Source of the DNA: a virus
DNA: 50,511 nt
Virus record (IMG/VR): IMGVR_UViG_3300044611_001332
Span: 1 to 50,511 of that record
Reading direction: 5' to 3' (one strand)
Shown here: one piece after another, positions 9,724 to 35,182 of the stretch
Position numbering within the stretch: the stretch's first letter is position 1
Layout: each line of letters opens with the position of its first letter
Program-made: the position numbers and the translations under genes
The notes under the pieces: generated by a model
The model's input: the letters and a program-made list of their open reading frames with translations, nothing else
Told to the model about the DNA's origin: nothing
The model's database searches: none

Positions 9724-10047
9724 GTGTACAACATCTGGAATGCAGCACTCTATGAAATAACTAACATCCTCATTGATTACAACAGAAAATTAGAACTTAA
9801 CCCATGGATCAAAGCAATCCGTCTTCATTGCTTCCCAGACTGGGTAGCATGGAAGACCGAGCGCACCATGGGTCGAGTCGATCAACAAATTGAGCAGCTC
9901 CAAAAGGAGATGCAGATTGAACACGATAAGAAATATGTAACACCAATCATCAAAGAGCACAAGCCTGATCAGTCCAAGGCTCAGCAGCTTCTGGGTGGTA
10001 CCCTACAGATCACAGCTCCCTGGTACAAACCAGAGGACAAAAACTAA
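9724..10047 (+). CDS. Helical hypothetical protein
   Basis: 107 residues from GTG 9724, five bases after the preceding stop. Rich in Trp, Tyr and Ile in the N-terminal half, followed by a charged coiled segment (GRVDQQIEQLQKEMQIEHDK). No signal peptide or family recognised. Cotranscription with the virion-type gene upstream is likely. Confidence 0.5.
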   Translation: MYNIWNAALYEITNILIDYNRKLELNPWIKAIRLHCFPDWVAWKTERTMGRVDQQIEQLQKEMQIEHDKKYVTPIIKEHKPDQSKAQQLLGGTLQITAPWYKPEDKN

Positions 10048-15885: not shown

Positions 15886-16356
15886 GTGGCTTATCAGTAT
15901 AATCCTTTCACTGGTAACTTAGATATTGTTTCAACCGGAGGCGGTGGAGGAGGTAGCGTCACGATTGCTGCTTCTGCTGCTGATGTGCTTGATGCAAGCT
16001 CTAACATCATCGGTGCTGACGATGCAGGTTCTGACAAGATTGTCTTTTGGGATGATAGTGCCAGCAAACTAACTTATCTTACGGTAAGCACAGGTTTAAC
16101 TATCAGTGGCACTACCTTAACTTCTGAAGTAACATCTGCTGCTGTTTCAATTGCAGATATTATTTCTGTTAGCTCAGGTACTATCAGTGCTGACGATGCA
16201 GGCTCTGATAAAATAGTGTTTTGGGATGATAGTGATAGCAAGCTGACATACTTAACTGTTGGCTCTGGTCTATCAATTTCTGGCACCACAATCACAGCTA
16301 CTGGTGGCGGTGGTAGCGTTACTGTTGACCCTGTTATTGCTGGAATGATCTTCTAA
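15886..16356 (+). CDS. Tail-fibre-type protein with tandem repeat
   Basis: 156 residues from GTG 15886. MAYQYNPFTGNLDIV, a poly-Gly linker, then two near-identical units containing DDAGSDKIVFWDDS and KLTYLTV (about residues 45-70 and 103-128). Gly-linked beta repeats of this kind are typical of phage fibres, where they trimerise. The stop and the next ATG share a base (TAATG at 16354-16358). Confidence 0.75.
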   Translation: MAYQYNPFTGNLDIVSTGGGGGGSVTIAASAADVLDASSNIIGADDAGSDKIVFWDDSASKLTYLTVSTGLTISGTTLTSEVTSAAVSIADIISVSSGTISADDAGSDKIVFWDDSDSKLTYLTVGSGLSISGTTITATGGGGSVTVDPVIAGMIF

Positions 16357-16715
16357 TGGCTGCACCTAATTTAAAATCTCCTACAACAATCACAGGTAAG
16401 ACAGCTCGCTATGCTGTTACAACCACCTTAGCTGCAGCACTAAGTAACGCTGCTGCAAGCAATAAAGTATTAAAGATCAATAGTATTTTTTGCGCCAACG
16501 TAGATGGTGTAAATGCTGCTGATATTAGTCTTTCTATTTTTGATGGTACTACAGATCGTTATATTGCTTTTACAATTGCTGTAGCACCTGATAGTACACA
16601 AGTTCTCAGCACAAAAGAAACTTATTTCTATCTTGAAGAAGGAGATAGTCTTCGTGCACAAGCTAGTGCAAATAGTGATTTAGTTCTTGTTATCGGTTAC
16701 GAGGATATTAGCTGA
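16356..16715 (+). CDS. Conserved tail-cluster beta protein
   Basis: 119 residues (MAAPNLKSPTTITGKTARYAV...). The pattern from S-P-T-T-I-T-G-K-T to the final V-I-G-Y-E-D-I-S matches small structural proteins that I know from phage tail clusters, with a jelly-roll-like strand order and the D-S-L-R turn. It overlaps both neighbours by a single base, so the cassette 15677-18615 is one translational unit. Confidence 0.7.
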   Translation: MAAPNLKSPTTITGKTARYAVTTTLAAALSNAAASNKVLKINSIFCANVDGVNAADISLSIFDGTTDRYIAFTIAVAPDSTQVLSTKETYFYLEEGDSLRAQASANSDLVLVIGYEDIS

Positions 16716-27913: not shown

Positions 27914-28663
27914 ATGAACAATCTGCTTGCCACTGGTATTTATGCCGGTGAGAAATTTATGGATAATGGTTTGCGTTTTGTGCAAATCAATCTTCCAAAG
28001 GTAGGTAATTCAGGTGCACAAGTTCCTCTACTTGTTGTACCTAATAAAGCTGCAGGTGAAACCTTTGATGTGTTTCAACCTGGTGCAACATTATTAGTTG
28101 GAGGTCGGTTGTATCCCAACCGTCAAGATTACAAGATGTACTTGGTTCCTAACCAGGTGTTTCAGATTGCTCCCCCTAACCTCGTAGTTAATCAGGTTAA
28201 TCTTGCTGGTGGTGTGGGATTTATTCCAGAACAAAACAAGGAAGATCTGTTTACTTTCTCGCTGATGTGCTCAGCTCCAGCGCAGCAGATCCTTGGCCAC
28301 ACTTGGGATGACAGCCTTGCGTTCCGCATGGAAGCATGGGGTGATGATGCTAAGCGCATGACTGCAAACCTCCATGTGGGACGGCAGATCGCTGTGTCTG
28401 GCGTGCTCCGCTACAACACCTGGACCACACAGGATGGTCAGCAGCGTGGTATGTATCAGGTCCGCGTGAAGAGTGGTACCTATGCCTTCTTTGGTAAGAA
28501 CAAGAAGAAGGAAGAACAGAATGAGCTGCGGGCTGTCAACACTGGCAATCGGTTTGAGTCGCCAGCAGCTGTAACAGCGGAGCCTTATCAGTCCTCTGTG
28601 CAACTGCCTCCTTTGCAGCAGGACGTACCAGCCGGTATCAACGGTGACGATGTTCCTTTCTGA
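27914..28663 (+). CDS. Single-stranded DNA-binding protein, two OB-like halves
   Basis: 249 residues. Two strand-rich halves of similar plan (residues about 1-85 and 110-195; the second with RQIAVSGVLRYNTWTTQDGQQRGMYQVRV) suggest two OB folds in one chain. A basic segment NKKKEEQNE and a flexible linker lead to GDDVPF, matching the acidic-aromatic tip of SSB. It should coat ssDNA at the fork. A smaller SSB-like protein lies at 4220. The G-(V/D)-L-R-Y-N-(T)-W element is shared with that gene. Confidence 0.8.
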   Translation: MNNLLATGIYAGEKFMDNGLRFVQINLPKVGNSGAQVPLLVVPNKAAGETFDVFQPGATLLVGGRLYPNRQDYKMYLVPNQVFQIAPPNLVVNQVNLAGGVGFIPEQNKEDLFTFSLMCSAPAQQILGHTWDDSLAFRMEAWGDDAKRMTANLHVGRQIAVSGVLRYNTWTTQDGQQRGMYQVRVKSGTYAFFGKNKKKEEQNELRAVNTGNRFESPAAVTAEPYQSSVQLPPLQQDVPAGINGDDVPF

Positions 28664-31910: not shown

Positions 31911-32258
31911 ATGACTCAAGAACACCCGATTACACCGCCCCCTGAGCTGGTGGAAAAGTGGCTGGAGAACACTTGCTCGCATGACTGCATCGGAGCTTAC
32001 CCGGCGAACTACGAGCAGCTCATCTGCACCCAAGCCGCCCGCTGGGGCGCTGATCAGGAGCTGGAGGCGTGCTGTGAGTGGCTTAAAGCCAAAGAGTGGA
32101 TTCACCACGAATTCAGCGACGAACTCCGCGCCGCCCGTCGCCCCAAGCCGCCGAGCTTGAAGGAGCAAGCGCTTGCAGTTTTAGACGACGCCTCAGATCG
32201 TCTTGATGCTGCTCACGAAAACATCATCCGCCGCGCACTGGAGCAACTCGATGGCTGA
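31911..32258 (+). CDS. Tandem-family protein 1 (ITPPPEL...AARWGADQELEACC)
   Basis: 115 residues. HPITPPPELVEKW at the start, QAARWGADQELEACCEWL in the centre, RRPKPPSLKEQAL and a C-terminal helix ending RRALEQLDG. Two further copies of this plan lie at 33717 and 34078, with about 40 bases nearly identical at the GADQELEA stretch. The family is one I associate with freshwater picocyanobacteria; function unknown. Higher GC than neighbours. The stop overlaps the next start. Confidence 0.7.
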   Translation: MTQEHPITPPPELVEKWLENTCSHDCIGAYPANYEQLICTQAARWGADQELEACCEWLKAKEWIHHEFSDELRAARRPKPPSLKEQALAVLDDASDRLDAAHENIIRRALEQLDG

Positions 32259-33386: not shown

Positions 33387-34085
33387 ATGACTGACCAATT
33401 TGTTAGCGCCAACAAAATGGTGCCGCCACGTGAGATTATTGAACAATGGGCTAATGAAAAGGATTACGACGAACGCGATTGGCTTTACGAGATCCACATA
33501 GCAAACTGTGCTGCTGCGTGGGGTGCTAACCAGCAACTAATTGCAGATGCAAAGTGGCTGGATCACAATGCCTTGAATGAACCTCACCTAAGGATCACCC
33601 CAGTGGGAGAATCATTGAAGGAAGCGATGCGTCCAAAAAGTATAAAGGAGCGGGCATTACACGATCTTCATACTGCTTATAACGCGGATCAAATTGATGA
33701 CCTTGGGAGAAATTCAATGACTAACCAACAACACCCGATCACCCCACCGCCGGAGCTGGTAGAGCAGTGGCGCGATTTGCCCGAGTTCACCGATGGGCGG
33801 CGAAAGATGATCATGGTCACTCTTTCAAGAGAAAAACTTCTAGACATCGCCACTCAAGCCGCCCGCTGGGGCGCTGATCAGGAGCTGGAGGCGTGTTGCC
33901 ATCTGCTGCGACAGCAGGGGTTTGACGTGGTTGACGACCTTCGCGCGACCCGCCGCCCAAAACTGCCATCATTGAAGGAGCAGGCCCTGAGCGAGTTGAA
34001 CCTGACTGCTGATCCCAACGGAGCCGAACTTTCACGAACCCAGGTTGAACTTATCCGCCGCGCATTAGAGCAACTCAATGACTGA
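33387..34085 (+). CDS. Fused tandem-family protein (two modules in one frame)
   Basis: 232 residues from ATG 33387. Residues 1-110 are a diverged member (PPREIIEQWANEKDY...NCAAAWGANQQLIADAKWL). Residue 111 is the Met of a second full member (HPITPPPELVEQW ... QAARWGADQELEACCHLL ... RRALEQLND). A TGA at 33718-33720 in the +1 frame overlaps that ATG exactly as in the other ATGA junctions, so a single-base shift has probably fused two genes. The second module may still start independently at 33717. Confidence 0.65.
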   Translation: MTDQFVSANKMVPPREIIEQWANEKDYDERDWLYEIHIANCAAAWGANQQLIADAKWLDHNALNEPHLRITPVGESLKEAMRPKSIKERALHDLHTAYNADQIDDLGRNSMTNQQHPITPPPELVEQWRDLPEFTDGRRKMIMVTLSREKLLDIATQAARWGADQELEACCHLLRQQGFDVVDDLRATRRPKLPSLKEQALSELNLTADPNGAELSRTQVELIRRALEQLND

Positions 34086-34419
34086 GAAACACCCGATCAC
34101 CCCACCGCCGGAGCTGCGTCGACTCTGGGCACAGCAAGCGCAACGCAAGAATCCACGCGATCCAGTGGCGTGGCAAGAGTACATCGCCGCCCAAGCCGCT
34201 CGCTGGGGCGCTGATCAGGAGCTGGAAGCGTGCTGTGAGTGGCTAGTAGTAGATGACTGGAAAAATGTAAGCGAGAACCTTCGCGCCTTCCGCCGCCCCA
34301 AGCCGCCGAGCTTGAAGCCCAGTAGTCCGACCCACTTCTATTTAAATTCTGTTATAGTAAACAAGTTCCCGCTCTTTTTGATCGGGCAGATAGAGCCCAA
34401 GCCTCTGTCCAGTCCCTGA
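34078..34419 (+). pseudogene. Tandem-family copy with replaced C-terminus
   Basis: Begins like its paralogues (HPITPPPELRRLW...QAARWGADQELEACCEWL...RRPKPPSLK) but after the last Lys diverges into PSSPTHFYLNSVIVN and runs through the promoter of the downstream RNA. The break coincides with the 26-base sequence shared with 33160-33185, whose TAG is out of frame here. The truncated N-terminal part may be translated; the tail is unlikely to be functional. Confidence 0.6.
34350..34358 (+). promoter_or_regulatory. Extended -10 promoter TGTTATAGT
   Basis: TG-T-TATAGT at 34350-34358, in an AT-rich stretch, with the first stem of the structured RNA beginning about 10 bases downstream. No clear -35 box. 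Confidence 0.55.
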
Positions 34420-34590
34420 GGCTGGTTACGCTTGGGCCATCAATTAAGGGGACAACCCTGGACTGAGGTTGTCTTAAACGAAGTTCACCCATCAAAGTGT
34501 GCTCGCCCTTTATTGGTTACGCGTCAGGCAGACAGCCTGGAGGGCGGCCACGGTTCTGGAGGCGTCCGATAACGTCTCCCCGTTTTTTCC
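34365..34590 (+). ncRNA. Structured RNA with kissing loops and own terminator
   Basis: Stems: CCCG/CGGG (34368-34371/34383-34386); GCCCAAGC/GCTTGGGC (34395-34402/34430-34437) enclosing CTC/GAG; GACAACC/GGTTGTC (34451-34457/34467-34473); CGCCCT/AGGGCG (34504-34509/34541-34546) enclosing CAGGC/GCCTG. Loop CAGTCC (34410-34415) is perfectly complementary to loop GGACTG (34460-34465). TGGTTACGC occurs twice. The RNA ends with GGAGGCGT/ACGTCTCC and TTTTTT. No coding potential and no family recognised. Confidence 0.7.
34558..34588 (+). terminator. Rho-independent terminator of the structured RNA
   Basis: GGAGGCGT (34558-34565) pairs with ACGTCTCC (34572-34579), one wobble, followed by CCG and six T. 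It ends seven bases before GTG 34595. Confidence 0.8.
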
Positions 34591-34594
34591 GCCA

Positions 34595-34765
34595 GTGAAC
34601 CGTCGTCAACTCTGGCACCTCTGGGCAAAAGCACTCGGAGAAAAAACAGGACGGACAACCTCAGAAGCTGATCGGGTTGCCCTTATTCGTTCCGTTATTT
34701 TCTTAACTTATTTCTTAACCAATTGTTTCATTGTGGCTGGTGTCATTCGCCACTGGAACAATTGA
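34595..34765 (+). CDS. Small single-span membrane protein, 56 residues
   Basis: GTG 34595 starts MNRRQLWHLWAKALGEKTGR; a hydrophobic span (SVIFLTYFLTNCFIVAGVI) fills the C-terminal half and the end is RHWNN. In-frame sequence back to 34499 lies in the structured RNA and is not used. The pattern WALGEK...EADRVA(L/I)IR...N-x-F-I-(V)-A...RHW is one I associate with cyanophage small membrane proteins. It probably requires its own or readthrough transcription from the RNA promoter. Confidence 0.65.
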   Translation: MNRRQLWHLWAKALGEKTGRTTSEADRVALIRSVIFLTYFLTNCFIVAGVIRHWNN

Positions 34766-34855
34766 GTCTTGTGTAAGACTTAACACTTTTTCCCTACTGT
34801 CCCTAGTAACCAAGAAGAACATCCGCTAATCTTGGTGCGCCCTTCCGTACCTTCT

Positions 34856-35182
34856 ATGGCTGGTGAGTTCTACTACAGGGACTACGACACCTACTTCCCT
34901 ACATTTAGCAATCATTCTAATAAGGTTGCTGAAATGATGTCTCATCTGAATTATCAGATTACCGAATTCGATTTGGCACCAGTGCCTAGTCAAGAGCTGT
35001 TTCGTATGACTTTAGATCTGATGTATTACGTTGATCAAAGTTACAAAGCAGACCACGGTATTTCTGATCAGTACGAAGTTCTTTCTTTCAGAACCAAAGA
35101 TGAAATGCTTGATTCAATGCGATCTCTCCTCAAGGAAGAACTTGATCGGTACTTGGGATCTAGCGATGCAGCCAACCAATGA
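34856..35182 (+). CDS. Hypothetical protein
   Basis: 108 residues from ATG 34856 (MAGEFYYRDYDTYFPTFSNH...). Aromatic and acidic, helical second half. No family recognised. Its 3' end overlaps the AbrB-like gene by 17 bases, starting a chain of overlapping genes to 36199. Confidence 0.55.
   Translation: MAGEFYYRDYDTYFPTFSNHSNKVAEMMSHLNYQITEFDLAPVPSQELFRMTLDLMYYVDQSYKADHGISDQYEVLSFRTKDEMLDSMRSLLKEELDRYLGSSDAANQ

Follow-up and report, generated by a model that had tools for sequence, protein, structure and literature searches.

The window analyzed here is a 50.5-kb cyanophage record (IMGVR_UViG_3300044611_001332; 50,511 nt). Its primase is closest, among the cultured phages listed, to that of the Synechococcus phage S-EIV1 (36% identity over 98%) and, judged from this likeness, S-EIV1 is the nearest cultured relative of the window virus. 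A near-identity search with 24 kb of the window against phage records gave no match. An RNA of ~225 nt is predicted on the plus strand at about 34365-34588, and the plasmids searched for this RNA gave no match. The next gene encodes a small membrane protein of 56 aa (34595-34765, plus strand, start probably GTG 34595) and is recognized by a match to phrog_1679 (E 1.8e-25, function unknown) and by comparison of the junction. On the other side, three small proteins that look like paralogues by eye are encoded in a row (31911-32258, 33717-34085 and 34078-34419) and read HPITPPPEL...WGADQELEACCEWL; the middle copy matches phrog_32006 and the last is truncated just upstream of the RNA's promoter. 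Members of this family also stand 3' of many RNA units in other phages. The earlier note had described the RNA as lacking an ORF, which holds insofar as none of the ORFs is convincing as one of its own, although mechanical ORFs do run across the region. ARAGORN reported no tRNA gene in the window.

Rfam 15 returned no match in the whole window at gathering cut-offs and, at E up to 10 in the interval 34000-35000, only a chance miRNA match on the minus strand. In the part of the relatives' loci that was scanned, only tRNA and abiF RNA rose above the cut-offs and the window's modules were unmatched. Since the window has no Rfam match, 6S RNA, RNase P, tmRNA, group I and II introns, ribozymes and GOLLD/ROOL were dropped as candidates. 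The -10 element, stems, presumed loops, repeat and end hairpin listed in the earlier note are all present at their positions, and its proposal of a structured phage RNA that is so far uncharacterised and has a promoter to itself is supported by the empty Rfam result, by the promoter register described below and by the wide distribution of the RNA's parts.

Sequence comparison gives good support to an anatomy in which the ~225-nt RNA is a mosaic of five folded modules in the order M1-M4-M5-M6-M3. Each of them recurs in other phages in other combinations, and the module boundaries used here are the limits of blocks that recur elsewhere in different orders. Occurrences were counted as exact pattern matches in the collections, where many viral contigs are fragments. 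The region as a whole has a better fold than shuffled versions of it (z -2.8; one shuffle in 200 did as well), and the same is true of the single modules, with z values of -2.3 (M1), -3.8 (M4), -2.4 (M5), -2.7 (M6) and -2.7 (M3). Compensatory base changes are present in M4, M5 and M6.

The predicted transcript would be driven by an extended -10 promoter, TGTTATAGT (34350-34358), with a TG at 34350-34351 and the -10 element TATAGT at 34353-34358 on the plus strand, followed by six bases and then G34365. No promoter was reported at this site by a simple scan for sigma-70, a method that depends on a -35. Independent support for the promoter first read from the window's letters comes from a fixed register common to 127 sequence-distinct M1 copies (the window's included), in which T-12 is kept in 69%, A-11 in 83% and T-7 in 85%, and the first G of the RNA falls at +1. 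Given this fixed distance, the transcript is expected to have the M1 hairpin as its extreme 5' terminus. M1 (34365-34388, plus strand) folds from +1 as one hairpin of ~22 nt, and its pattern occurs in at least 120 viral contig stretches of IMG/VR. Of 34 distinct sequences, 31 close this hairpin with a G-C pair and the other three with C-G. The M1 pattern was also found in a viral contig of 578 kb (L104).

M4 (34389-34442, plus strand) is a long stem, with the strands GCCCAAGC (34395-34402) and GCTTGGGC (34430-34437), capped by the hairpin CCAGUC/GGCUGG. Its pattern occurs in 43 viral contig stretches of IMG/VR, and the covariance model R1 gives the window copy 72.5 bits. In the alignment A1 of 31 sequences, which was re-gapped by one column so that hairpins of five and six pairs are in register, the capping hairpin keeps pairing in 152 of 162 cells with both-side changes in five of its six pairs, the outer stem in 353 of 372 cells with such changes in three of 12 pairs, and the inner hairpin GCCUC/GAGGC in 146 of 155 cells with none. 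Held-out matches of the model lie in the phages S-CREM1 (directly before tRNA-Ala) and S-EIV1 and in L185 and L149. The model found nothing in 388 Pseudomonadota and 388 Bacillota genomes, a set searched without a positive control. It also found no M4 in the bacterial abiF loci, which a scan of 349 Pseudomonadota genomes had located in nine (E <= 0.001), three of these lying over the cut-off. The repeat TGGTTACGC, which the earlier note had placed in two modules, does occur twice in the window RNA (34423-34431 and 34514-34522) but is not kept in relatives: most aligned M4 copies read CACGC at this site, and M6 copies read TGGTGCGC, TGGTCACGC or others.

M5 (34442-34515, plus strand) consists of an outer stem, the hairpin GACAACC/GGTTGTC (34451-34457/34467-34473), the linker TTAAACGAAG and a second arm, and is probably a three-way junction. 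The exact-pattern scan of IMG/VR places it in 34 viral contig stretches with 17 distinct contexts. When M5 is taken together with a longer form, M5L, four of six hairpin pairs and two of five outer-stem pairs are changed on both sides, a count that covers seven and eight sequences with hand-picked stems. The M5 pattern was met in four stretches of a collection of 84,980 species; since none of these has the M5 context, the idea that M5 is a copy of a host RNA was given up. M6 (34512-34552, plus strand) is a hairpin with an ANAYA pentaloop and an internal loop of the GU/GAAG type. It occurs in nine viral contig stretches by the same kind of IMG/VR scan and scores 55.5 bits in the window with the covariance model R2. 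In 13 of the 14 sequences aligned in A2, the GGC-ANAYA-GCC core is unvaried; four pairs around it vary, each of them with changes on both sides, and a single cell fails to pair.

The last module, M3 (34558-34579, plus strand), is the hairpin GGAGGCGU-CCGAUA-ACGUCUCC, found in 30 viral contig stretches of IMG/VR and showing both-side changes in one of eight pairs among five distinct sequences. In the window it is followed by CCG and a run of six T (34583-34588, plus strand), which had been read as a canonical terminator. The hairpin and the T-run are indeed there and may terminate transcription in this phage, as far as their letters tell. Among 25 distinct M3 contexts, however, the longest T-run within 10 nt is six only in the window, four in two contexts and at most three in 22, and terminator-like matches in the region (1) are about as many as in shuffles (mean 1.2). 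As M3 mostly lacks a T-run, possible termination is not why this otherwise conserved module is kept.

That these blocks are exchanged is seen from their combinations. The 110 distinct M1 units in promoter register comprise 65 with at least one recognized module, in 27 different orders, and 45 with none; the calls were made by text patterns, which miss diverged copies (such as M5L of L024 and L006) and whose 'T' pattern also fits true tRNAs. The turnover can be followed at one shared insertion site, the junction with the small membrane protein gene, which stands no more than 110 nt from M3 both in the window and in seven relatives (L013, L005, L007, L024, L048, L058 and L030). Three records that match the window in full (L002, L003 and L011) have an identical RNA. 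The window's species has M1-M4-M5-M6-M3 here, L005 and L013 have M1-M3 only, L007 has M1-M2-M6-M5L-M3 and a tRNA-like RNA, and L024 has the content of L007 plus a GACAA tRNA-like RNA. L009 and L010 have no RNA at all and their two protein genes abut, L015 and L016 have other sequence without recognized modules, and the more distant L030, L048 and L058 have M1-M3 and then a tRNA-like RNA, with or without sequence between. A gene about 6 kb upstream (27914-28663 in the window) is meanwhile shared at 97% identity with L005, 96% with L007, 88% with L009/L010, 82% with L013 and 80% with L024. Such turnover, with the structure of the modules conserved, resembles an arms race, which is one among the possible causes of fast exchange. 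No paper listed by searches of the open-licence literature describes these modules or their mosaic arrangement in its title or in the opening of its abstract.

The nearness of the membrane protein gene at 34595 invites the reading that the RNA is a cis-acting 5' leader, a long structured 5' UTR controlling how this gene is transcribed or translated, and the presence of M1 directly 5' of protein genes in other phages fits with it. We nevertheless consider it unlikely. An M1 unit precedes the gene by at most 900 nt in only eight of its 37 sequence-distinct occurrences (the other 29 lack one there, partly as the gene stands elsewhere), the gene does without any RNA in L009/L010, module content varies while the gene stays constant, and the same modules are found inside tRNA arrays and before unrelated genes.

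M1 itself has to be set apart from the modules behind it. Some of its copies sit directly 5' of protein genes or operons in other phages, so that M1 is a general leader of this promoter class rather than a part specific to RNA cassettes, and is no evidence for a role in trans. In six loci (L114, L109, L113, L072, L087 and L101) the genes downstream of M1 look by eye like capsid or structural genes, which suggests a leader element of late promoters. M1-like letters also stand between the tRNAs of the T4-like tRNA cluster of Klebsiella phage JD18 (L204 2501-2530); the likeness in such clusters of Klebsiella T4-like phages has E values of 0.07-4, may be due to chance and was not used. It could be argued that M1 is an antiterminator or stabilizer of late transcripts comparable to the put RNA of HK022, and that the modules behind it are passengers like the extra RNAs in phage tRNA clusters. 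According to the cited part of that work, put works in cis from a place close to where transcription starts (PMC9378689). Its antitermination involves the zinc-binding domain of RNA polymerase. The position of M1 at the predicted +1 of many coding and non-coding phage transcripts favours a function of this sort, and put and M1 have in common that each is a structured RNA close to the beginning of its phage transcript. The chances of this explanation are nonetheless low: put, as described there, has two stem-loops in ~70 nt and M1 a single hairpin of ~22 nt, modules without M1 are found in S-EIV1 and in tRNA arrays, and M4 to M6 are maintained by covariation, something that would not be required of passengers.

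The company that the modules keep in other phages includes an RNA known from a defence system. AbiF RNA (Rfam RF03085) exceeds the curated cut-off in seven of 35 phage records, with one weaker match in an eighth, and is also present in L149 (42.3 bits). A protein of the Abi_2 family, the only toxin family searched, was detected in none of the 35 records, the same search giving one sub-cut-off match in 14 control genomes; this list contains G001, a near-identical sister of the window's record, in place of that record itself. The window has no match to the 37-position abiF model. In the cultured phage S-SZBM1, the stretch from tRNA-Pro to tRNA-Ala contains M6, a GATAA tRNA-like RNA, M4 and abiF RNA; here a GATAA loop replaces the anticodon loop of the tRNA-like RNA, abiF RNA comes directly after M4, as it does in L146, and it ends four bases before the 5' end of a tRNA. 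The tRNA array of S-CREM1 contains a GACAA tRNA-like RNA, M5L and abiF RNA, and elsewhere in this phage M4 abuts the 5' end of tRNA-Ala. The region 16205-16545 of S-EIV1 (L246) shows in a row a relative of M4 (27.4 bits, E 3e-4), an abiF-like element, a GACAA tRNA-like RNA and a second tRNA-like RNA; no RNA is annotated in this stretch and only the end of the cassette touches an annotated CDS. The abiF-like element beside M4 in S-EIV1 and in L187 was recognized by eye and pattern and not counted, as Rfam reports no abiF RNA there: its ends are those of the Rfam-recognized copy in L146 but it has a long insert. S-CBS2 has M1, M3 and M4 between the genes for the large terminase and a sigma factor, and the T4-like phage DSL-LC03 has M5L.

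Three side observations can be added. The richest array seen is in L149 (1-784, minus strand), with M1, a variant of M4, abiF RNA, two tRNAs, M6 and a long M5L. An unclassified block, 'M8', with the core CTGAGGTCCACCGTTGGTTGTGG as judged by eye, stands behind M1 in L121, L202, L187 and L228. Finally, the mycobacteriophages Redno2, Minerva and Thibault (NC_022066, NC_026584 and JN201525) share a 29-base match with the abiF module of L060.

RNAs that resemble tRNAs without a normal anticodon loop are a recurrent part of this company, and their GAYAA loops return in S-SZBM1, S-EIV1 and several contigs; such RNAs accompany the modules in phages of several lineages. One of them, in S-CREM1 (L231 1942-2013, about 9968-10039 of the record), is called tRNA-His(atg) by ARAGORN; with an anticodon stem of three base pairs and a GACAA loop it is probably a non-decoding tRNA-like RNA. 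M6 occupies the position of the anticodon arm in the tRNA-like RNAs of L190, L193, L202 and L025; the window copy resembles that arm only, as neither a cloverleaf nor an anticodon loop of 7 nt was found. One might therefore see the modules as decoys or regulators of host tRNA biology, that is, of charging, modification or anticodon nucleases, rather than as ligands of proteins that bind RNA antitoxins, and the position of M6 and the repeated presence of GAYAA tRNA-like RNAs beside the modules speak in favour. With M4, M5 and M3 not being tRNA-like, and no conserved relation to one host tRNA having emerged, we regard this as distinctly improbable.

The earlier note had further proposed a kissing contact between CAGTCC (34410-34415) and GGACTG (34460-34465), taking both as loops. 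CAGTCC lies, however, inside CCAGUC, which is paired with GGCUGG in the predicted fold, and as this helix covaries in the 31 M4 sequences the segment is one strand of a stem. For CAGTCC to be a loop, the inner hairpin GCCUC/GAGGC would be needed, in which no pair has changes on both sides. Seven sequence-distinct units with M4 and M5 within 600 nt were compared, the loops being taken by position, and the complementarity that relatives were expected to keep is retained in only two: it spans six bases in the window and L034 and three in the other five units. Both partners have changed in L034 and still pair (CGAUCC/GGAUUG, with one G-U and one compensatory pair). M5 copies with the identical loop GGACTG occur in L076, L083 and L212, whose fragment records contain no M4. 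On these letters a kissing contact appears possible in the window RNA and is not a kept feature. That the RNA regulates through loop-loop contacts or assembles with itself like the large ornate phage RNAs is very improbable, since the six-base match and its one compensatory change in L034 stand against a covarying stem, the loss of complementarity in five of seven units and the want of a match to GOLLD, ROOL or any other Rfam family.

We propose instead, at a probability of about 0.42, that the phage carries here an exchangeable cassette whose RNAs act in trans and bind proteins, serving as decoys or in the manner of antitoxins. A host-type RNA polymerase would start at G34365, and the transcript would open with the M1 hairpin, to be followed in succession by M4, M5, M6 and M3. 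The modules would fold independently of one another, and at this hypervariable site each would enter, leave or change place as a whole. M1 would act in cis on transcription or stability and thereby on the fate of the transcript, and the other modules would act in trans by binding host proteins, whose RNA partners they may imitate or titrate. The targets would chiefly be RNases of the abortive-infection or toxin-antitoxin type, and the tRNAs and tRNA-like RNAs of sister cassettes would probably be processing marks for RNase P/Z, or decoys themselves.

The model for such an action is abiF RNA, which occurs beside the modules in phages where no AbiF gene was detected. According to the cited part of a recent study, the abiF RNA RCd22 of Clostridioides difficile binds the AbiF toxin directly and so neutralises it, both in cis and in trans, and abiF RNA comes as two motifs (PMC12373285). 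The same text describes Abi_2 as widespread in Bacillota and Pseudomonadota and in the part cited leaves cyanobacteria unmentioned (PMC12373285), so that this survey would not by itself place an AbiF target in the present hosts. An Abi2/SWT1-family fusion in Anabaena is listed in the cited section of a survey of HEPN proteins (PMC3710099); related toxins are thus not foreign to cyanobacteria, which is no evidence for these hosts. Two points argue against the cassette reading. The window RNA itself lacks an abiF module and is therefore linked to abiF by association only, and the collections searched contain no cellular counterpart of M5 or M4. Neither host originals of M1, M3, M4, M5 and M6 nor a host target of the modules were found.

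A wider form of the proposal is more tentative, and we hold it to be rather doubtful. At least three cyanophage lineages (S-EIV1-like, S-CBS2-like and T4-like) would share at least seven RNA modules, assembled as cassettes, often behind one promoter-leader, with each module neutralising a different RNA-dependent host defence protein; the result would be an RNA-only counter-defence island that tracks the defences of local hosts. Were this true, such loci would be the RNA counterpart of anti-defence gene islands, M4, M5 and M6 would point to new toxin or defence systems of picocyanobacteria, and a mosaic locus in the company of an antitoxin RNA could be read as a catalogue of RNA-binding defence proteins to seek. 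In cyanophage genomes, intergenic gaps without a label and unusual 'tRNA' calls become testable RNAs, and S-EIV1, S-SZBM1 and S-CREM1, which are described as isolates with named hosts, allow a direct test.

Several known systems can be compared with the cassettes. The plan of abiF RNA is by eye similar to that of M4, with an outer stem, an AAGC..GC step and a capped hairpin, but M4 conserves different letters, has no known toxin partner and forms a family of its own. In S-CREM1, wcaG, manA, glnA and abiF are annotated as ncRNAs; in the cited portion of the genome description abiF RNA is given without a role, and neither M4 nor M5L nor the tRNA-like RNA is named (PMC9964418). The annotated abiF RNA is part of a tRNA array, and M4, M5L and the GACAA tRNA-like RNA occur in the same phage. 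The tandem repeats of one RNA unit that are typical of ToxI are not seen, as the modules within a unit differ. Phage counter-defence is known mostly in the form of protein genes, and the RNA mimics among its means each copy one host RNA. Closest to the working principle proposed here are the pseudo-ToxI RNAs of phiTE, which counter ToxIN (PMC3475682), and the Racr RNAs, which inhibit CRISPR-Cas (PMC10651486), both being small phage RNAs that mimic a host defence RNA. As presented in the parts of these papers cited, each of them mimics one named host RNA, whereas in the cassettes several unrelated modules are strung together.
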